In this document: positions 1 through 14,274 of the stretch, one piece after another | Position numbering within the stretch: position 1 is the first letter of the stretch | Layout of the letters: each line of letters starts with the position of its first letter | Source: Streptomyces sp. SM10 | GTDB taxonomy: Bacteria > Actinomycetota > Actinomycetes > Streptomycetales > Streptomycetaceae | Direction of reading: 5' to 3' | Length of the DNA: 64,000 nt | NCBI RefSeq assembly: GCF_002910915.1 | Contig: NZ_NEUF01000081.1 | Location: 1 to 64,000, forward strand | Program-made: the position numbers and the translations under genes | The notes under the pieces: model-generated | Seen by the model: the letters and a program-made list of their open reading frames with translations, nothing else | Told to the model about the DNA's origin: nothing | The model's database searches: none

Positions 1-953
1 CCCACGGCTCCCGCCGCCACCGAGCCCGCCTCGGCGGCCACCCGGCTGTCGGCCCCGAGGGCCCGGCAGCCGTCGCAGTAGGAGAGGCCGCGCGCGGGGA
101 CACCGGAGCGCTCGGCGAGGTGGGCGGGGCCGACCGTGCGGATCATGCGCAGCACCGGTGACTCCAGGGCCCGCCGGCGTACGGCGGCCCAGTCGTCGGT
201 GGCGAGGTGGCCGAGACGCAGGTGGGCGGGGGCGGGCCGCCGGTCCACGGTGTCCTGGTTGCAGCAGGCGAGCACCGTCCCGTCGAAGGCGACCACCGGC
301 CAGGCGGCCATGGCGCACGGGGACACCGCACCCGGCTCCGGGCCGGTGCGGGTGGCGGCGGCCCAGGACGCCGCCCGGCCGAACGGCCGCACCTCGTTGA
401 CCAGGGACGGCACCAGGCCGCCGAACTCCTCGTCCACGGCGCGGGTGATGCCGGCGAGATAGGGATCGTCCGTCCCCGTGCCGGTGAGATGGAAGCTCAC
501 CGCCGTGCCCGTCTCCCGGATCCGGTGCACGGCCCGGAACACCTCGGCGCGGGACACCTCCCGTTCGTGGTGGGCGTCCAGACTCGCGGAGAAGTGGTCC
601 ACGGACTCGACCGCCCGCAGGACCGGAGCCGGAATCCGCCGGGACCGTGCGAAGAACATGCCGCTGAGCAGCGCCGTACGCGATCCGGCGGCGCGGGCGC
701 GTGCGCTCAGCTCCTCCACGAGTGAGGGCAGCAGCAGAGGTTCGCCGCCGGTGAGCATGACGACGTCGGGTCGGTTCTCCGGGGTGAACGACTCCACGAA
801 GCGCACCAGTTGGCCGGGGTCGGGCTCCTCCCGTACGGCCGGGGACGATCCGGTCGAGCAGTGGGCGCAGCTCAGGGGGCAGCGCCGGGTGAGGCCGAGC
901 AGCAGGCCGGCGGCGGGGAAGGGCCGCCGGCCGACGAGTTCGCCGAGTTCCAT
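1..953 (-). CDS. Radical SAM/SPASM protein, 3' end beyond the window
   Basis: The reading frame is open from an ATG at 953 to the left edge (317 codons visible, no stop). A CxxxCxxC motif at Cys25, Cys29 and Cys32 is the radical SAM [4Fe-4S] ligand set, followed by a GGEPLLLP-type motif. Further on are a Cys, a CC pair near codons 230-231, LRLGHL, and CDGC near codons 296-299, the usual spacing of a SPASM auxiliary-cluster domain. SPASM proteins commonly modify ribosomal peptides. It diverges from the class III-type precursor gene at 1277, so peptide modification (thioether, epimerisation or C-C crosslink) is a reasonable inference. The substrate is not shown by sequence, and what lies further left is not visible. 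No frameshift: all Cys codons are in one frame. Confidence 0.85.
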   Translation of the reverse strand, partial: MELGELVGRRPFPAAGLLLGLTRRCPLSCAHCSTGSSPAVREEPDPGQLVRFVESFTPENRPDVVMLTGGEPLLLPSLVEELSARARAAGSRTALLSGMFFARSRRIPAPVLRAVESVDHFSASLDAHHEREVSRAEVFRAVHRIRETGTAVSFHLTGTGTDDPYLAGITRAVDEEFGGLVPSLVNEVRPFGRAASWAAATRTGPEPGAVSPCAMAAWPVVAFDGTVLACCNQDTVDRRPAPAHLRLGHLATDDWAAVRRRALESPVLRMIRTVGPAHLAERSGVPARGLSYCDGCRALGADSRVAAEAGSVAAGAV

Positions 954-1276: not shown

Positions 1277-1435
1277 ATGTCCGAGAACACCAAGCCCGCC
1301 GCCGACGACAACAACGAGGAGACCCCCGAGGTCGAGGCACACTCCGTGCTGGACCTCCAGGAGACGGCCGCCCAGGAGAAGGACGTGGCCGGCAGCTGCG
1401 TCAGCGTGATCAGCGTCGTCCTGGACGCCAACTGA
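1277..1435 (+). CDS. Class III-like lanthipeptide precursor, 52 aa
   Basis: The ATG at 1277 follows GGACGGAG by a short spacer. The peptide has an acidic leader (residues 1-39) containing VLDLQ at 24-28, the hydrophobic recognition motif of class III precursors (LFDLQ or LLDLQ in the SapB/AmfS group). The probable core begins after Gly39: SCVSVISVVLDAN. It has three Ser (40, 43, 46) and a single Cys at 41. In most lanthipeptides, and in the labionin motif SxxSxxxC, the Cys is C-terminal to the Ser it joins; here two of the three Ser lie after it. The motif sits unusually deep in the leader (normally near the N terminus). The LanKC gene downstream and the exporter between them support the assignment. 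The mature structure is unknown. Confidence 0.8.
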   Translation: MSENTKPAADDNNEETPEVEAHSVLDLQETAAQEKDVAGSCVSVISVVLDAN

Positions 1436-1637: not shown

Positions 1638-3032
1638 ATGACCACGCCGCTGCGCGGCAACAGGGATTTCCGGCTGCTCTGGCTGAGCGGCCTCTTCGCG
1701 GTGCTGGGCGGGCAGATGAGCGCCCTCGCCCTCCCCCTGCTGGTGCTCAAGGAGACCGGCTCCGCGGTGCAGGCCGGCGCCGTCGGCACGGTGTCCGTGG
1801 GAGCCGTGCTGATCGCCATGCTGCCCGGCGGGGTGATGTCGGACCGCGTCGAGCGCCGCCGGCTGATGAGGCTCTGCGACGTCGGCAGCCTGACCGTCGT
1901 CACGGCGCTCGCCACGGCCGTCTGGTTCGGGCACGCCCCCATGGCGCTCGTCCTGCTCGTCGCCGCCGCGGGTGCGGTCATCAGCAGCGTCTACGGGCCG
2001 GCCGCCTTCGGCCTCATGCGCGCCGTCGTCCCGGCCGACGAGATGGGCACCGCCACCGCACGGCTGCAGGCACGCACCCAGACGGCGAGGCTGGTCGGAC
2101 CGCTCGTCGGGGGCGCGCTCTTCGGTATCCACCCGGCCCTGCCGTTCGCGGCCGAGGCCCTGGGCCTGCTGCTGTCGACGATCTGCGTGGCCCTCGTCCG
2201 CACCCGCTCCCGCGCCCGGAAGAGGGCGGGCGCGGTGTTCACCCGGGAGGAACTCACCGCCGGCCTGGCGTACCTGTGGCGGATCCCCTACCTGCGTACG
2301 GTCCTTCTGGTCTTCGGCCTGGGCATGAACTTCGCGTTCGGGGCCCTCACCTTCACCGCGCTGACCGCGTTCTCCGAGGGAGGGCGTTCCGGGGTCGGCG
2401 GCGGCTTCGTCATCACCTGCGTGTCCGCCGGGGCGCTGGGCGGGGCACTGCTCGCGCCGCGCATGCGGCCCGACCGGCGCACCCGCTCGCTGATCCTGGC
2501 GACCTGCTGGACCTGTGTGCTGGCCGCCGGGGTGATGGCCTGGATCAGCCGGCCGCTGGTCGCCGGGTTGATGTGCGCGCTCTGCATGTGCCTGTCCACG
2601 ATCGCCAGCATCGGCTTCCTGTCCACCCTCCTGGTCGTTACCCCGGAGGAGAAGGTGGGCAGGGTGCAGAGCGCGGCCGGCTTCCTGTCCTCGATGGTCC
2701 AGCCGCTCGGACCGCTGGCCGGGGGAATCCTGCTGTCGGCCTTCGGCGTCCGCTGGGCCTTCGCCCTGACCGGCTGCGTGCTGGCCGCGTCGGCCCTCGT
2801 GGTCACCTTCGCCCCGTCCGCACGGGAGACCCCGTCCCGGGAACCGGCGGACCCCACCGGCCGGGAGGAACCGGCCGAGGGCCCAGCGCGGGAGCCGGCC
2901 GACGTTCCTGCCCCGGAACCCGCCGCGGTGCGTCAGCCGGAGCCGGCCACCGGCCCCGCACCCGCCGGCCCCGACCCCGCACCCGTCGGCCCCGCACCCG
3001 CCGGTGCGAACCGTGCCGCTCCCGGCGACTGA
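1638..3032 (+). CDS. MFS transporter, likely peptide exporter
   Basis: A 464-residue major facilitator with about 12 hydrophobic segments and the motif-A-like loop GGVMSDRVERRR after the second segment. The ATG at 1638 was chosen because the mature MFS pattern (NRDFRLLWLSG) begins right after it. The last about 65 residues form an unusual Pro/Ala/Glu-rich cytoplasmic tail with repeated PAP/EPA units, absent from typical MFS proteins. The gene lies between the lanthipeptide precursor and LanKC, so export of the product or self-resistance is inferred. Class III clusters more often carry ABC exporters, so an MFS here is less common. Confidence 0.85.
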   Translation: MTTPLRGNRDFRLLWLSGLFAVLGGQMSALALPLLVLKETGSAVQAGAVGTVSVGAVLIAMLPGGVMSDRVERRRLMRLCDVGSLTVVTALATAVWFGHAPMALVLLVAAAGAVISSVYGPAAFGLMRAVVPADEMGTATARLQARTQTARLVGPLVGGALFGIHPALPFAAEALGLLLSTICVALVRTRSRARKRAGAVFTREELTAGLAYLWRIPYLRTVLLVFGLGMNFAFGALTFTALTAFSEGGRSGVGGGFVITCVSAGALGGALLAPRMRPDRRTRSLILATCWTCVLAAGVMAWISRPLVAGLMCALCMCLSTIASIGFLSTLLVVTPEEKVGRVQSAAGFLSSMVQPLGPLAGGILLSAFGVRWAFALTGCVLAASALVVTFAPSARETPSREPADPTGREEPAEGPAREPADVPAPEPAAVRQPEPATGPAPAGPDPAPVGPAPAGANRAAPGD

Positions 3033-3135: not shown

Positions 3136-5718
3136 GTGCCACGCATCCAGGAGACCCCGCTCTACTGCCTCGCCGACCGCACGTACTACGACGTCCCGGC
3201 CCGGCTGCCCGACGAGGAGTCCCGCTACCCGCTCGACACCCAACCGCCCCCGCCCGGCTGGCGGCGCGGGACCGCGGGGCTGTGGACCTCACTCGTGCCC
3301 GAGCACGGCGAACCGGCCGAGCAGGGCTGGAAGATCCATGTCTCCACCGTCCCTGAGGAGGCGGAGAAGACCCTGCGGGACACCGCGGACATCTGCCTGA
3401 GCCACGGTGTCCCGTTCAAGTTCCTTCGCAGCGCACGGGCGTTGAGACTGATGGCGGACAAGCACATGAACCGCAGCGGCGCGGGTAAGTTCATCGCGGT
3501 CTACCCGCCCGACGAGACCGTGTTCCTGACGCTGGCCGATGAGCTCACCCACGCGCTGGCGGGGCGCCGGGGTCCCTACGTCCTCAGTGACCTGCGGATC
3601 GGCGACGCCCCGGTGTACACGCGCTACGGCGCCTACCTGCCGCGCTGGTGCACCGACGCCGAGGGCCGCCGGGTGCCGGCCCTGCGCGCCCCCTCCGGCG
3701 AACTGGTCCCGGACGAACGCGGTGTGGTGTTCCGGGTGCCCGAGTGGGTCGAGGTCCCCCCGGCCCTGCGACCGCACCTCGCGGCACGCGCCGCCGCCCG
3801 TGACGACACCTTCCCCTACACGGTCGTCGAGGCCCTCCAGTTCTCCAACGCGGGCGGGATCTACCTCGCCAGGCACCGGGAGACCGGACAGCGCGTGGTG
3901 CTCCGGGAAGCGCGCCCGCACTCCGGACTCGACGCGTCGGGCGACGACGCCGTCACCCGGCTCCACCGCGAGCACCGGGCGCTGACCGCGCTGGCCGGGC
4001 TGGAGTGCGTGCCCGAGGTGTACGGCGTCCGGACCGTCTGGGAGCACCACTTCCTGATCGAGGAGCACATCGAGGGGAACACGCTGCTCGACGAGATCGT
4101 CGCCCGGTTCGCCCTGGTGCGCGGCGCGGTGACCGCGGAGGAACTCGCCCCCTACGTCGCATGGACCGACGCGGTGGCGGGCGAGCTCTCCCGGGCACTG
4201 GACGCGATCCACGCCCGCGGTCTGCGCTTCGGTGATCTGCACCCCTCCAACATCATCGTCCGGCCCGACGGACGCGTCGTCCTCGTCGACTTCGAGTACG
4301 CCACCGCACTCGACGACGTGGACACCCCGCTGGCCGGCGGTCAGGGACTTCAGGCGCCCCAGGGCACCCCCGGCGCCGAGGCCGACGCCTACGCGCTCTG
4401 GGCGACCTGGCTCACCATGCTGATGCCGGTCATGGAGATGGCCGGACTGGAGAGGGCCAAAGCCCTCACCCTGGAACGCTGGGCACGCCGACGCTACGGA
4501 CTGGCGGCCGACGCGGGACCACGCCGCCCGGCACTGCTCCACGGGCTGGACGCCTCGCGGCGGCGCGAGGCCCAGGTGTCCGCCCTGTTCGAGGGGGTGG
4601 ACGTGGACTGGGCGGGCATCCGCGCCGGGCTGCTGGCGGGCATCCACGCCGGAGCCACGCCCGGACGGGCGGACCGCCTCTTCCCCGGGGGTCCGGGGCT
4701 CTTCGCCACGGGCGGCAGCGACCTCGCGAACGGTGCGGCCGGTGTCCTCTACGCCCTGCACCGGACCGGTGCGCCCGTTCCCGACGAGTGGACCGACTGG
4801 CTCGCGGCGGCGGCGTCGCGCAGGGACCCCGCCGATCCCGGCGGCCTCTTCGAGGGGCTGCCGGGCACGGCCCTCGTGCTCTGCCTCCTCGGCCGCACCG
4901 GCCAGGGGCGTGAGCTGTGGGACCGCGCCCTGTCCGCCGCGCCCCCGGCCGCGTCGGCGGACCTGCTCACCGGGCGCGCGGGCATCGCCCTCGCCGCCCT
5001 CCGCACGGCCCGGGCGTGCGGCACGGCCCCGGACGGCCCGCTGACCGACCTCGCCCTGAGCACCGCCCGTGACCTGGACCGGCTGGTGCGGGGCGAGCCG
5101 GTGGACGGCCTGCGCCTCCCGGAGTCCGCGGGGCTCCTGCACGGCCTGAGCGGAGCCGCCCTGCTCCATCTGGAACTGCACGCGCTGACCGGCGAGGCCT
5201 GGCTGCTGCGGGCCGCCCGCGCCGCCCTGGAGCGCGAGGCCGGACACCTCGTCCCCATGCAGGACGGCACGCTCCAGGTGAAGGACGGCCGACGCCATCT
5301 GCTCTACCTCGACCAGGGCAGCTCGGGGGTCGCGCTGGTGGCCCAGGCGTACACCGCCCGGCACGAGGACGCCGCCCTGAGCGCCCTCATCCCCCGGGTG
5401 GGCAAGGGCTGCGCCATGGAGTTCGTCCGTGAACCGGGGCTGTTCACCGGGCGCGCGGGCCTCGTGGCCGCCGCGGGCCAGCTCGACCCCGCGACCCGCA
5501 CCGGGCCCGGGGTCCTGGCCTCCGTACGCAACCTCTCCTGGCACCTGATCGCCCAGGAGGACCGGCTGCTCGTCCCGGGCGCGACCCTGCGGCGCTGCTC
5601 CGCCGACCTCGCCACCGGCGCCGCCGGACTGCTGCTGGGGCTGGACTTCCTGTCCCCCGGCCGCGACGGGGCGCGGGGGACGGCCCCCGGTCTGCTGGAG
5701 CTGCTCACCCTCGGCTGA
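3136..5718 (+). CDS. Class III lanthionine synthetase LanKC
   Basis: This 860-residue trifunctional enzyme would phosphorylate Ser/Thr, eliminate phosphate and cyclise. The GTG at 3136 follows a GAGAAGAGAGAG stretch. An N-terminal lyase-like domain (about 1-210) starts with ETPLYCLADRTYYD. The kinase domain (about 230-420) has GDLHPSN with catalytic Asp367 and Asn372, and DFE at 385-387. The C-terminal LanC-like domain (about 500-860) has no visible zinc Cys/CHG ligands, as expected for class III. Oddity: the usual ATP-binding lysine in the VVLKEARP-type strand reads VVLREARP (Arg257). If that lysine matters, kinase activity or substrate use may differ. The stop overlaps the converging SARP gene by 14 bp. 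Confidence 0.92.
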   Translation: MPRIQETPLYCLADRTYYDVPARLPDEESRYPLDTQPPPPGWRRGTAGLWTSLVPEHGEPAEQGWKIHVSTVPEEAEKTLRDTADICLSHGVPFKFLRSARALRLMADKHMNRSGAGKFIAVYPPDETVFLTLADELTHALAGRRGPYVLSDLRIGDAPVYTRYGAYLPRWCTDAEGRRVPALRAPSGELVPDERGVVFRVPEWVEVPPALRPHLAARAAARDDTFPYTVVEALQFSNAGGIYLARHRETGQRVVLREARPHSGLDASGDDAVTRLHREHRALTALAGLECVPEVYGVRTVWEHHFLIEEHIEGNTLLDEIVARFALVRGAVTAEELAPYVAWTDAVAGELSRALDAIHARGLRFGDLHPSNIIVRPDGRVVLVDFEYATALDDVDTPLAGGQGLQAPQGTPGAEADAYALWATWLTMLMPVMEMAGLERAKALTLERWARRRYGLAADAGPRRPALLHGLDASRRREAQVSALFEGVDVDWAGIRAGLLAGIHAGATPGRADRLFPGGPGLFATGGSDLANGAAGVLYALHRTGAPVPDEWTDWLAAAASRRDPADPGGLFEGLPGTALVLCLLGRTGQGRELWDRALSAAPPAASADLLTGRAGIALAALRTARACGTAPDGPLTDLALSTARDLDRLVRGEPVDGLRLPESAGLLHGLSGAALLHLELHALTGEAWLLRAARAALEREAGHLVPMQDGTLQVKDGRRHLLYLDQGSSGVALVAQAYTARHEDAALSALIPRVGKGCAMEFVREPGLFTGRAGLVAAAGQLDPATRTGPGVLASVRNLSWHLIAQEDRLLVPGATLRRCSADLATGAAGLLLGLDFLSPGRDGARGTAPGLLELLTLG

Positions 5719-7609
5719 GCGGGAGGGCGGCCTCCCGGGAGCCCAGAGGAGCCCGCCTGCCACTGCTGTCCGCCCCCGCGTGCTCGGCGGCGTACAGACA
5801 GAGCAGGCGGGGCACCTCGTAGCGCACGGCGTGTGCCGTGACCTCACCTGGCGGGGAGGTCACGGCACCCGAGCCGATCAACGACTCGACGCTGCGGATG
5901 GCCTCCCGCTCCGGGCAGCCCAGCGCCTCCATCGCCCGCTCCAGGGTGAATCCGCCGTCGCCCGCGAGCACGGCCAGCCGTGTCAGCGCGCGGCGGTCCT
6001 CTGCGTTCAGGTCCTGCCAGCCCGCCGAGATCCGGGAGCGCACGGACACGTCCCCGGCCACCAGTTCGTCCAGTGCCGAGGGAGTGTCGTCGAGCCGGGC
6101 CGCGTACTCCGCCAGCGGGAGATGCCGCAGCACCGCCAGCCGCATGCCGCTCACCACCACCGCCAGGGGCAGCGCCCCGCAGGCACGGACGACACGGAGC
6201 GCCGCCGCGGGGTCCGAGCACAGCCGGTCGGTCCCGATCAGTCTGCCCAGCAGTTCCAGGGCCTCGCCGTCCTCGGGCGCGGCCAGTGCGACCCGGTGCA
6301 CGGGTGCGAGGCCCGCCAACTGCCCCCGGGCCGTGAGCAGTACCGAGGACCGGCCCGACCTCGGCAGCAGCCCGCGCACCGACGCCTCGTCCGCCACGTC
6401 GTCCAGGACGATCAGGGCACGGTGCTCCGAGAGCCAGTTCTGCCAGGTGTTCTCGGCCTCCGTGACGTCGGGCCGTCCCGGGCCGGTCACGCCGCACAGC
6501 CTTCCCAGCTCGTCCAGCACGTCGGCCCTGGTGCGGGGCGTGCCGTCCTCCCGCCGGGCCCGGACATGGACCCGGCCGTCCGGGAACCGGTCCGCGAGCA
6601 GGTGCGCCGCCCGCACGGCCACCGCCGACTTCCCCACCCCGGCCGGGCCGGACACGATCAGCACCGCTCCCTCCGGGCCGCCCGACACGTCCAGCAGCCG
6701 GGCCAGTTCGTCCTCGCGGCCGGTGAAGTGCCGGCTGTCCGCGGGCAGCGAGACACCGGAGGCGGCGCTCCCGGCCGTGCCGGAGCGGGACGCGGGGCGC
6801 CTGCCGAGCACCGACCTGTAGAGCGCCGCCATCGCCGGGCTCGGCTCCAGGCCCAGCTCCCTGGCCAGCAGCTGGCGGTAGTCGTCGTACACCGCCAGCG
6901 CCTCCGCCTGCCGGCCCGTCTGGTGCAGTGAGTTCATCCAGGCCGCGCGGAGCCGCTCACGGAACGGGTGACGCTCCACCAGGTCCCGCAGCCCGTCCAC
7001 GGCTACGGCTGCCCGGCCGGTCTCGATCTCCGCCTCGGCCCAGTCCTCGTAGACCGTCAGGCAGCGGGCCTCCAGCCGCTCGGCCTCCTCCGCCACCCCG
7101 GCGGAGTCCCGCAGGTCGTGCAGCGGCGGGCGCTCCCCCCAGAGGTCCAGCGCCTCCCTCAGCAGCCGCGCGGTGGTCCGCAGGTCCCCCCGCTCCCCGG
7201 CGGCCCGGCCCGCGCGGGCCAGTGCCCGGAAGCGCAGGGTGTCCAGCTCGTTCTCCTCCACCCGCAGCCGGTAGCCGCCGCAGCCGTGCACCACCCGGTC
7301 GCCCCCGTCGCCCGGCGCGAACAGCGAGCGCGCCGCGCTGACGTAGACCTGGAGGTTCTTGCGCGCGGTACGGGGCGGCCCCTCGGGCCACACCACGTCG
7401 GTCAGCACGTCCACCGGTACGGGGGTGTTGGGGCGGGACAGCAGGGTGGCCAGGACGAGGCGCTGCTTGCGCGGGCCGAGCGGCAGCGGTACACCGCCCG
7501 CCTCGGCCGAGAGCGGTCCCAGCAGCGAGAAGTACACCGTGCCGGAGGAACCGGAGGAACCGGAGGAGCCGGGGGAACCAGGGAAAGCAGTCGTGGAGGG
7601 GCGGGTCAT
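5705..7609 (-). CDS. SARP/AfsR-type regulator with NB-ARC ATPase domain
   Basis: A 634-residue activator. After a short Gly/Ser-rich start come an OmpR-like winged helix (about 25-110; LLGPL, RKQRLVLATLL), a bacterial transcriptional activation domain (about 120-265) and an NB-ARC NTPase with Walker A GPAGVGKSAVA and LIVLDDV. The C terminus is short and lacks a TPR array, so it is medium-sized for the family. The ATG at 7609 is taken because the winged helix starts soon after. Codons for GSSGSSGSSG come from a 9-bp tandem repeat. SARPs usually activate neighbouring biosynthetic operons by binding direct repeats, so it probably controls the lanthipeptide genes. It is the last gene of the minus-strand block headed by lanM. 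Confidence 0.9.
   Translation of the reverse strand: MTRPSTTAFPGSPGSSGSSGSSGTVYFSLLGPLSAEAGGVPLPLGPRKQRLVLATLLSRPNTPVPVDVLTDVVWPEGPPRTARKNLQVYVSAARSLFAPGDGGDRVVHGCGGYRLRVEENELDTLRFRALARAGRAAGERGDLRTTARLLREALDLWGERPPLHDLRDSAGVAEEAERLEARCLTVYEDWAEAEIETGRAAVAVDGLRDLVERHPFRERLRAAWMNSLHQTGRQAEALAVYDDYRQLLARELGLEPSPAMAALYRSVLGRRPASRSGTAGSAASGVSLPADSRHFTGREDELARLLDVSGGPEGAVLIVSGPAGVGKSAVAVRAAHLLADRFPDGRVHVRARREDGTPRTRADVLDELGRLCGVTGPGRPDVTEAENTWQNWLSEHRALIVLDDVADEASVRGLLPRSGRSSVLLTARGQLAGLAPVHRVALAAPEDGEALELLGRLIGTDRLCSDPAAALRVVRACGALPLAVVVSGMRLAVLRHLPLAEYAARLDDTPSALDELVAGDVSVRSRISAGWQDLNAEDRRALTRLAVLAGDGGFTLERAMEALGCPEREAIRSVESLIGSGAVTSPPGEVTAHAVRYEVPRLLCLYAAEHAGADSSGRRAPLGSREAALPLSRG
7535..7585 (-). 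repeat. 9-bp tandem repeat coding the Gly/Ser start of the SARP protein
   Basis: On the plus strand the unit CCGGAGGAA recurs about four to five times with minor changes, read on the minus strand as repeated Gly-Ser-Ser. Such a slippage-prone run at a protein N terminus can vary in length without breaking the frame. Confidence 0.7.
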
Positions 7610-7801: not shown

Positions 7802-10717
7802 TCAGGGCTGGTCGGTGACGCACTCCGCGGCGAATTCGCACAGCGCCGTACGGTTGGCCCGGCCCGTCTTGCTGAGCAGGCTGGCCAGGTGCTTCTCCAC
7901 CGTGCGGGGCGAGATGGACAGCCGCTGGGCTATCTGCTGGTTGCCCGGCCGCTCCGGCAGCAGGACGAACACTTCGTACTCGCGCGGGGTCACCCCGTTC
8001 GTCCGCAGGGACGACGGAATCCGGTCACGGCCCCCGCGCCGCTGGGTCACGCTCACCCCCGCCTGCCTCAGGACGGCCCGGCAGGCCGACGCCGCGGGCT
8101 GCACCCCGGCGGCGTAGAAGTACTCCTCCGCGGTGCGCAGCCACACGACCGGCTCGCCCCATCCATCGGCGAACGCCGCCTCCGCGACCAGCCGCAGGCC
8201 GAGGTGGCGGGCCACCGGGAAGGCGGCGGACCGGGTGTGGAAGGCGGCCATCCGCCGTTCGGCGCCCGTCCGGTCGCCCTCCCGGCCGAGCAGCACGGCC
8301 GCCGCCAGCTCCAGGAACTGCCGGTTCCAGGCCAGGGCGGCACCGGAGGTCCCGGCCACCGCCTCGTACTCGCCGGGCGCCGCCTCACCCGCCAGCACCC
8401 TCAGCAGCGGGCGCAGCCCGTAGCGGCCGCTCAGGTAGTAGTAGCTCGGGTGGTCGTGCTCCCAGGCCAGGGACGCGTCCAGATCGGCCAGGGCCCGCGG
8501 GCGGTCCTCGTCCAGGAGTGCCCCGAGGGCCCCGCAGAAGCCGAGCTGGAGGGGCACCAGGGCGGACTGCTCCCCTCCGGCCCTGCGGAAGGCGGCCAGC
8601 GCCCGGTCCTTCTCCCGCCGTCGGCCGCGGTGCGCCGCGGTGGCGGCCCCGGCCAGCAGCAGGTACCGGTGGGCGCCGTGGTTGCCGATCCTGGCGCTGG
8701 CCTCCACCGACCGTCCGGTGATCTCCTCCGCCTCGTCCCACCGGGCGCACATCACCGCGTTCATCGCGAGGAGTCCGTCGACCGTCTGGGCCAGCAGCAG
8801 GGAACCGAGCTCCGCGGCCGCCGCGCGAGCGGAGTGCAGCCGGCCCGCGTCTCCGGTCCGCATGAAGCCGTTGACCCCCAGACGCACCAGCGCCTCGACC
8901 CGCCACAGGGGGAGCGCGTGTTCGGTGGAGAGGGTGAGCATCCGTTCCAGGCAGGCGTCGGCGGCGTCGAAGCCCCTCTCCCGGGAGAGCAGCGCCAGCA
9001 ACTGCCAGGCCTGGCAGGCCACGACCGGAAGCCCTTCGGCCTCGGCGGTCTCCGCGGCCTCGCGGGCGGCCCGCTCGACGACAGCCGGGTCCCGGCGTTC
9101 CTCGCCGGGGAGCAGCGAGAGGTGGCCGTCGACCACGGTGAGCGAGGCATCGTGCGCCGGGGACGGCTCCGGCCCGAACAGGCTGCGGGCAGAGGTAATC
9201 TGACGGGCCGTATCGGCCGCGCGCTCCGCCATGACCGCCACCCAGGCGATCTTGATGTGGGCCTCCCCGCGCCGGACTGCGGCCTCCGAGCGCGCCGGGA
9301 CCGGGGACAGGGAGTCGGCCAGCGCCAGAGCGCCGTCCAGGTCTCCGCCCTCCGCCCTGGCCACCGCGAGGGACTCGGTGACGGCGGCGAGGTCGGCCTC
9401 CGCGGCCAGGGAGAGGGAACGCTCCAGCAGGACCACGGCCGAGCCGTGCGAACCCGAGGCGAGCATCCGGCGCCCCGCCTCCGCGAACTGGCGTGCGGCG
9501 CCCGCCCGGTTGCCGGCGGCGAGCTCCAGCGACGCCACGAGCTGGCGCCGGTCCTCGTCGAGCGGCTCCCCGGACCGCTCCACGGCCGTCGCCGCACGCC
9601 GGGCCAGCGCGGCGCGCTCCGCCGGTGCGAGCGAGGAGACCAGCGCCTCCGCGGTGAGGGCGTGCCGGAAGGTGTAGCGGTCGGGGGCCGCTCCGTCCGG
9701 GGCGATGACACCCGTCTCGACGGCGGATCTCAGGTGGGTGAACAGAGCCCGGTCCTCCAGGCCGGTGACGGTCTGGAGGACCGGTACGGAGAACTGGCTG
9801 CCCAGGGTCGCCGCCGTCAGCAGCAGGTCCCGCACCGGCTCGTCCATCCGGTCGAGCCGGTGCGACCAGCTCCGCAGGATGCGCGACGGCAGGGTCCCGT
9901 CCGGCTGCTCGGCCGTCTCCCAGCCGTCCTCGGTGCGCCGCAGCCTGCCCGTGTCCAGCAGATCGTCCAGCAGCACCTCGACGAGGTAGGGATTGCCCGC
10001 CGCGCGCTCGACCAGCCGCTGCTGGAGCGCCTCGGGTATCCGCTCGGGCGGGGTGTCCAGACAGGCGCCGGTCAGGGCCCGCACCTCGGCGTCGCCGAGC
10101 CCTCGTAACTCCGTCACCGCCGCCGTGTGCCGCTGCTCGGCAGAGCGTACGAGGTCCAGTGCCGCCCCCGGTTCGGGGCGCAGGGTGCCCAGCAGCAGGA
10201 CGGGCAGGTCCGCCAGGTTGTCGATGACGTACTCGACCACCGCGACGGTCTCCGTGTCGCAGTCGTGCAGGTCCTCCAGCAGCATCACGCAGCCGCCGTC
10301 CCGGCCCAGGACCGACAGCAGGCGCAGCAGGGCCTCGGCCAGCTCGACCACGGTCTCCGAGTAGCCGGAGGACGTCCCGCTCCGCCACTCGGGCACCAGC
10401 CGGGCCAACGCCGGGTGGTACGGCACCAGTTCCGGGTCGGTCGGGGTGCCCGCCGCCCGGAAGTGGGACGAGAGGGCCTCCACCAGAGGGCGGAAGGGGA
10501 CGACCAGGCCGGTGGAACCGGCCCGCCCCCGCAGCACCGGCATCCCCAGTCCGTAGGCCCGGTAGGCGCACTCGCCCACCAGACGGGACTTGCCGATCCC
10601 CGCTTCACCGACGAGGAACAGCGCGCGCCCCGAACGCCGACGTGCGGCGTCCAGGGCGCTGCTCAGCAGGCCGATCTCCTCGTCACGTCCGACGACGACC
10701 GGCGAATTCGCACGCAT
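7802..10717 (-). CDS. LAL-family LuxR regulator with AAA ATPase domain
   Basis: A 971-residue large ATP-binding LuxR regulator. Walker A GEAGIGKSR lies at 37-45, VMLLEDLHDCD is the Walker B region, a long helical TPR-like middle follows, and the C-terminal LuxR helix-turn-helix spans about 905-965 (TPREYEVFVLL, NQQIAQRLSISPRTVEKHLASLL). The gene starts 80 bp after the cysteine-free precursor and is followed 192 bp later by the SARP gene. LAL proteins commonly act as pathway activators of secondary metabolite clusters, so two layers of control (LAL and SARP) appear dedicated to this locus. The effector is unknown. Confidence 0.92.
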   Translation of the reverse strand: MRANSPVVVGRDEEIGLLSSALDAARRRSGRALFLVGEAGIGKSRLVGECAYRAYGLGMPVLRGRAGSTGLVVPFRPLVEALSSHFRAAGTPTDPELVPYHPALARLVPEWRSGTSSGYSETVVELAEALLRLLSVLGRDGGCVMLLEDLHDCDTETVAVVEYVIDNLADLPVLLLGTLRPEPGAALDLVRSAEQRHTAAVTELRGLGDAEVRALTGACLDTPPERIPEALQQRLVERAAGNPYLVEVLLDDLLDTGRLRRTEDGWETAEQPDGTLPSRILRSWSHRLDRMDEPVRDLLLTAATLGSQFSVPVLQTVTGLEDRALFTHLRSAVETGVIAPDGAAPDRYTFRHALTAEALVSSLAPAERAALARRAATAVERSGEPLDEDRRQLVASLELAAGNRAGAARQFAEAGRRMLASGSHGSAVVLLERSLSLAAEADLAAVTESLAVARAEGGDLDGALALADSLSPVPARSEAAVRRGEAHIKIAWVAVMAERAADTARQITSARSLFGPEPSPAHDASLTVVDGHLSLLPGEERRDPAVVERAAREAAETAEAEGLPVVACQAWQLLALLSRERGFDAADACLERMLTLSTEHALPLWRVEALVRLGVNGFMRTGDAGRLHSARAAAAELGSLLLAQTVDGLLAMNAVMCARWDEAEEITGRSVEASARIGNHGAHRYLLLAGAATAAHRGRRREKDRALAAFRRAGGEQSALVPLQLGFCGALGALLDEDRPRALADLDASLAWEHDHPSYYYLSGRYGLRPLLRVLAGEAAPGEYEAVAGTSGAALAWNRQFLELAAAVLLGREGDRTGAERRMAAFHTRSAAFPVARHLGLRLVAEAAFADGWGEPVVWLRTAEEYFYAAGVQPAASACRAVLRQAGVSVTQRRGGRDRIPSSLRTNGVTPREYEVFVLLPERPGNQQIAQRLSISPRTVEKHLASLLSKTGRANRTALCEFAAECVTDQP

Positions 10718-10797: not shown

Positions 10798-10992
10798 CTA
10801 AACAATCGTGAAGGTGGTCCACGGGAACTCGTCGCCGGGGCCCGTCTCGCCCTCGGCGGATCTGAGGAGTCTGCTCCGCAGCCCCAGCCCGCCGCTGATG
10901 CCGAGCGATATGCGGCCGGCGGGGTGTTCGGTGCCGCCCGCGTGCGCCGCCGTGGTGTCCGTGTACCCGTTGGATTCGCTGATCTGTGTCAT
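10798..10992 (-). CDS. Putative LanM substrate: 64-aa precursor lacking cysteine
   Basis: The ATG at 10992 is 11 nt after the lanM stop, with GAGG just upstream, so the gene is almost certainly cotranscribed with lanM. The peptide has two Gly-Gly sites (19-20 and 34-35), a basic stretch LRSRLLRS (38-45) and a C terminus DEFPWTTFTIV rich in Thr. It has no Cys, so ordinary (methyl)lanthionine rings cannot form within it. Possible outcomes are dehydroamino acids only, reduction to D-residues, addition of an external thiol, or use by another enzyme. The precursor role rests on size, position and Gly-Gly sites; no family match is recognised. Confidence 0.6.
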   Translation of the reverse strand: MTQISESNGYTDTTAAHAGGTEHPAGRISLGISGGLGLRSRLLRSAEGETGPGDEFPWTTFTIV

Positions 10993-11003: not shown

Positions 11004-14159
<3,156 letters not shown>

Positions 14160-14274
14160 CGCGTTCACCTCCCCTGCCGGGGAGGCCCCTGTGGTTCTCC
14201 CCGTGACCATCCTGGGGGGAGGCGACGGCCCGCACATGGGGGAGTTCCCCCCATCTTTCGATCCGTCGCACCGC

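Follow-up and report, generated by a model that had tools for sequence, protein, structure and literature searches.

Labionin-forming class III lanthipeptides, of which labyrinthopeptin is an example, derive from precursors of the SxxSxxxC type. The Cys can also come first: in cinnamycin and in ring A of mersacidin, a Cys precedes its Ser or Thr partner and the thioether is directed toward a C-terminal dehydro residue. Dehydration in class III systems follows a phosphorylation and elimination logic, and the absence of zinc ligands from the cyclase is a trait of their synthetases (PMC10604976). Composition is an imperfect guide to the product, as certain class III enzymes form lanthionine, not labionin, from SxxSxxxC (PMC7268733). 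The closest described system to the locus considered here is 'subfamily C', six Streptomyces peptides of classes II and III recognised in a 2024 survey (R Soc Open Sci; PMC11251773), each with one Cys in a C.S..S motif described as 'reverse-labionin'-like. Clusters of this subfamily combine a LanKC, a LanM and a second, Cys-free peptide, for which a two-peptide complex was suggested; the survey was of sequences, without chemistry. In a literature search, the term 'reverse-labionin' was met in that paper only.

The window, meaning the whole 64,000 nucleotide stretch of Streptomyces sp. SM10 that was analysed, begins at base 1 of contig C71, where the contig end truncates a radical SAM gene (Table 1). 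Its lanthipeptide cluster fits every feature stated for subfamily C: the precursor, LanA, belongs to a lineage with a single Cys in CxSxxS (55 of 55 distinct precursors), and a LanM and a Cys-free peptide are found in the same cluster. The reverse-labionin-like layout is therefore already known.

A Cys-first precursor and its synthetase

Small ORFs were called on codon bias and motifs. That of LanA, preceded by a GGAG ribosome site approximately 8 bases upstream of its ATG, translates as MSENTKPAADDNNEETPEVEAHSVLDLQETAAQEKDVAGSCVSVISVVLDAN. The leader contains EVEAHSVLDLQ, with the LxLQ-type motif SVLDLQ, and is followed by the core region G-S-C-V-S-V-I-S-V-V-L-D-A-N. The precursor had no match in searches of Pfam and NCBIfam, and strings from its core and leader had no text match in the literature search. 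The first-pass annotation had described a class III-type precursor with its only Cys ahead of two Ser residues and directly after a third. The LxLQ-type leader and a LanKC two genes downstream bear out the class, and the translation bears out the arrangement: the sole Cys is residue 41, with Ser40 before it, Ser43 and Ser46 after it, and neither Cys, Ser nor Thr C-terminal to Ser46. Numbering this Cys as 'core position 2' presumes cleavage after Gly39, which is a guess at the site; Gly occupies the position in 53 of the 55 lineage precursors.

Table 1. Features of the lanthipeptide cluster and its surroundings, in window coordinates
Feature	Coordinates	Strand	Basis or remark
Radical SAM enzyme	3..953	-	Truncated by contig end; divergent from LanA; partner of aroma-sacti peptide
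LanA, class III precursor, 52 aa	1277..1435	+	Translation, leader motif, conserved core
MFS exporter between LanA and LanKC	1638..3032	+	Present at almost all LanA loci
LanKC, class III lanthionine synthetase (lyase, kinase, cyclase)	3136..5718	+	GTG start; NF038151, RamC_N
SARP/AfsR-type regulator	5705..7609	-	BTAD, NB-ARC
Large AAA-LuxR regulator	7802..10717	-	S. griseus-type clusters; absent from Kitasatospora-type loci
LanA2, Cys-free precursor of linked LanM, optional part	10798..10992	-	C-terminus ...DEFPWTTFTIV
LanM, class II lanthionine synthetase, optional part	11004..14237	-	TIGR03897, 669 bits

The synthetase scores 841 bits against NF038151 (cut-off 575) and has RamC_N, Pkinase and LANC_like domains in Pfam, with intact kinase motifs. 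Alignment to solved class III chains places YLDQGSSG and PGLFTG where its cyclase would have zinc ligands, so that these ligands are lacking. The lyase, kinase and cyclase domains, the zinc-free cyclase and the LxLQ-type leader together place the system in class III. In a 53-row LanKC tree, the synthetases that accompany CxSxxS precursors form one clade with support of 100/100, and the nearest row outside it, L186, joins at 98/91. The L186 LanKC adjoins two Cys-free, Thr-rich peptides (5262 and 5396; ...TTSTVTVTTVVTII and ...TVTTVTVTTISTII). Beside the PGLF loop of the cyclase, four residues ahead of the loop Phe (F770), Glu766 is present in all 18 CxSxxS synthetases compared, the residue being mostly Gln or others elsewhere.

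Conservation of the CxSxxS layout

Precursors were gathered by the leader motif alone, ignoring the core; the scan used a closer alignment, one including distant relatives having given no usable block. The precursor is present in 21 of the 392 genomes of the genus panel, and a scan of contigs from named genomes found 43 loci, among them S. griseus, S. globisporus, S. anulatus, Streptomyces sp. SirexAA-E and Kitasatospora, the cluster being carried by numerous Streptomyces of the S. griseus group. Of the 57 distinct precursors collected, 55 contain CxSxxS with no Cys besides the one in the motif, and in every one of these lineage precursors C41, S43 and S46 are invariant. None has a Cys after the second Ser, so the labionin motif SxxSx2-5C does not occur in the lineage, and 34 of the 55 lack any Ser or Thr beyond S46. 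Six Kitasatospora-type loci preserve the gene order LanA-MFS-LanKC, and their cores, of the form DG[SNL]CFSLISYV, retain CxSxxS. The Cys-first layout of LanA is not due to chance.

The first-pass annotation had set this layout apart from SxxSxxxC and named two ways in which it might mislead, namely that a C-terminal Cys had been lost here by mutation or that the frame is not translated. The distinction stands, as a conserved property of the lineage, and no homologue among the 55 has a C-terminal Cys. Nor is the frame idle: pooled pairwise NG86 dN/dS across the leader blocks is 0.085, indicating strong purifying selection and therefore that the LanA frame is translated and kept. The core block, with a dN/dS of 0.81, has x positions that vary freely among mostly hydrophobic residues, while the Cys and two Ser are fixed. 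The same annotation had remarked on three Ser residues spaced SxxSxxS; this is true of the window copy but not of the family, in which position 40 is N in 32 precursors, S in 20, and A, L or T in one each. As Ser40 is not conserved, the trio is incidental to the window copy and not the design of the family, and a role for Ser40 as a necessary ring partner is ruled out by the range of residues found there. Since C41, S43 and S46 are invariant and position 40 is free, what selection maintains is a single Cys together with a Ser pair spaced SxxS, the residues that make up a labionin unit.

Tandem duplication of LanA was observed in the S. globisporus group (L114-L118, L120, L122, L124 and L127-L129), the copies differing in their linkers and sharing the same CxSxxS.

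Two relatives with the leader motif carry a C-terminal Cys: one ends ...GKSTASIVC (G003), and the other, ...DELISTVSLGEC, contains ...ISTVSLGEC (G361). Their SxxS aligns column for column with Ser43 and Ser46, with the Cys on the opposite side, and their LanKCs are distant, at approximately 32% identity and in a separate clade of the tree. The other class III precursors identified are mostly of the form SxxSx2-5C, in a motif survey that is partial, several other LanKCs having yielded no precursor. The LanKC of G271 adjoins peptides with two Cys. Beside the distant LanKC of G183 (L066 6421) lies a single-Cys peptide (L066:6149-6337) that is also Cys-first, ...FCISASWSDWSIHTA / ...AAFCISASWSDWSIHTA.

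Proposed ring chemistry

The two Ser residues that never vary both follow the Cys, and because Ser43 and Ser46 are the only constant Ser, a ring from the Cys must run C-terminally. A ring toward a C-terminal dehydroalanine, one of two uses of the Cys put forward by the first-pass annotation, thus remains the best reading. We tentatively favour, at a little short of even confidence, a scheme in which LanA is a substrate of LanKC, is dehydrated at Ser43 and Ser46, and has its ring closed by Cys41 in a reverse labionin-type arrangement. LanKC would bind the leader at EVEAHSVLDLQ, phosphorylate both Ser and eliminate the phosphate to give dehydroalanines; the thiol of Cys41 would then attack a C-terminally placed dehydroalanine, the reverse of the direction in known class III rings. 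Most probably, Cys41 would add to Dha43 and the resulting enolate at residue 43 to Dha46, generating a 'reverse labionin' that comprises a C-x-S thioether ring and an S-x-x-S carbon ring with a quaternary carbon at residue 43. A protease, perhaps the linked S8 enzyme, would cut off the leader, probably close to Gly39, and the MFS pump would export the product. It is possible, if a shade more doubtful, that the clade as a whole makes a new crosslinked amino acid of this kind through a zinc-free cyclase with switched ring polarity.

The reason for favouring a labionin-type product is that both Ser, spaced SxxS, have been retained. The comparison of sequences is consistent with this on several counts: all 55 precursors have exactly one Cys with S43 and S46 so spaced; the LanKC is a class III enzyme of a monophyletic clade; LanA-MFS-LanKC is retained in the Kitasatospora-type loci; and the two relatives with distant LanKCs align at SxxS with the Cys on the other side. 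Against it, a thioether between a Cys and a Dha two residues apart would be small and unusual, and the formation of plain lanthionine from SxxSxxxC in class III (PMC7268733) means that composition is no proof of a carbon-carbon bond.

This last point lends itself to a second outcome, which we consider less likely: both Ser dehydrated, Cys41 joined to Dha46 (or Dha43) in a reverse lanthionine, and the other residue left as dehydroalanine, with no carbon-carbon bond. Conservation of C41, S43 and S46 fits such a product equally, and other classes provide precedents for a Cys that precedes Ser or Thr ('occasionally C*[ST]'; PMC11251773). A plain lanthionine, however, needs one Ser, whereas both are invariant and at the spacing typical of labionin. 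More improbable is that the Ser residues are dehydrated or unmodified and the Cys stays free for a disulphide, metal binding or acylation; a Cys beside the likely new N-terminus could serve such other roles, but the partner LanKC is conserved, as is an SxxS pair at a constant distance from the Cys, which speaks against it.

The linked LanM

S. griseus-type clusters link a LanM and a Cys-free peptide, typically with DLP[WF]TT[MF]T a few residues from its end. They thereby lend some colour to a two-peptide product, in which LanM would handle LanA2, and LanA would act with the Cys-free LanA2 or be joined to it through its Cys. This we regard as very improbable, since the CxSxxS core is retained where a close LanM is missing. 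A close copy is absent from five of the six Kitasatospora-type genomes, of which three (G763, G765, G767) have matches of 37-38%, one (G768) a partial match of 45% and one no match, the sixth, K. xanthocidica (G764), having a LanM of 54% on contig C37; at E<=1e-20 neither G766 nor G769 had a match to LanM. A close LanM is therefore no general need for the layout, and this distribution led to the rejection of both LanM and a two-peptide product as requirements. LanM and LanA2 look dispensable for LanA.

The radical SAM enzyme and the aroma-sacti peptide

The other use of the Cys suggested by the first-pass annotation was a sactipeptide-type bond, in which the neighbouring radical SAM enzyme would bond the sulphur of the Cys to an alpha carbon. 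The enzyme is encoded in each of the 21 genomes of the genus panel that carry LanA, nearly always as the divergent neighbour of LanA; it matched no named family above its cut-off. Its usual partner, however, is a different peptide, with an aroma-sacti domain (NF045560), found in all 52 panel genomes that have the enzyme. In 46 of 52 loci the peptide follows the enzyme on the same strand, at a distance of 0.85-2.2 kb, and 26 of these 46 are without LanA. The window's own genome has this peptide at C3:881-1021, on a contig whose first gene is the one that would be expected to follow the radical SAM gene. Conversely, the six Kitasatospora-type loci have the CxSxxS precursor and LanKC, and neither the radical SAM enzyme, its helper nor the aroma-sacti peptide was found in them (locus L138 being short). 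The six whole genomes, which may be incomplete, had no radical SAM homologue at E<=1e-10, the same query having matched 52 genomes of the panel as a positive control. Sactipeptides require a radical SAM maturase with the precursor, and here six CxSxxS loci are without one. As LanA and LanKC persist without it, the Cys-first layout is independent of the radical SAM enzyme, and use of the Cys by that enzyme, a reading with next to no probability in our estimation, was rejected on the pattern of co-occurrence.

The aroma-sacti operon (window 3-953; C3:881-1021; L061:12318-18594) occurs in many genomes without LanKC genes. It comprises the radical SAM enzyme, a helper that by eye resembles a heme-oxygenase-like protein and the Cys-free peptide, which ends ...PEVQAHGEIAGGALF, together with a cyclase/AAA protein, a protease of family S8 and a GAF-like protein. 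The motif EV[EQ]AH is common to the leader of LanA, the aroma-sacti peptide (L030:393) and a peptide at locus L141 (L141:9001), a relative by leader that is without LxLQ and has no LanKC beside it. The contexts of EV[EQ]AH have in common the S8 protease and the cyclase gene, and the motif may for this reason be a shared recognition site.

Comparison with known systems

Beyond the published description of subfamily C (PMC11251773), the present analysis adds a set of 55 precursors, a Kitasatospora-type branch that lacks the radical SAM enzyme and, for the most part, a close LanM, a monophyletic LanKC clade, the freedom of position 40, and evidence against a role for the radical SAM enzyme. If the ring exists as proposed, class III cyclases would be able to act in either direction about a Ser-x-x-Ser pair that stays in place, and the change of ring direction would be marked by one LanKC branch. 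Polarity in metal-free lanthionine cyclases could then be tested through swaps of residues or cores between related enzymes, and the product would add a small carbon-sulphur scaffold to those known. Possible producers are available among the Streptomyces of the S. griseus group, many of which have the cluster.

Like the labionin-forming class III systems, such as that of labyrinthopeptin, the window system has a LanKC without zinc ligands, an LxLQ-type leader and an SxxS pair; unlike them, its Cys lies two residues before the first Ser, whereas theirs follows the second. Sactipeptide clusters of the aroma-sacti type (NF045560) are alike in that their peptide and radical SAM enzyme adjoin the LanA cluster, but there the enzyme pairs with its own Cys-free peptide, and the LanA lineage survives without it. 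With cinnamycin and mersacidin, the window system shares the order of Cys before Ser; those peptides, however, are the work of class II enzymes with zinc cyclases and contain several Cys, in contrast to the zinc-free LanKC and single Cys found here.
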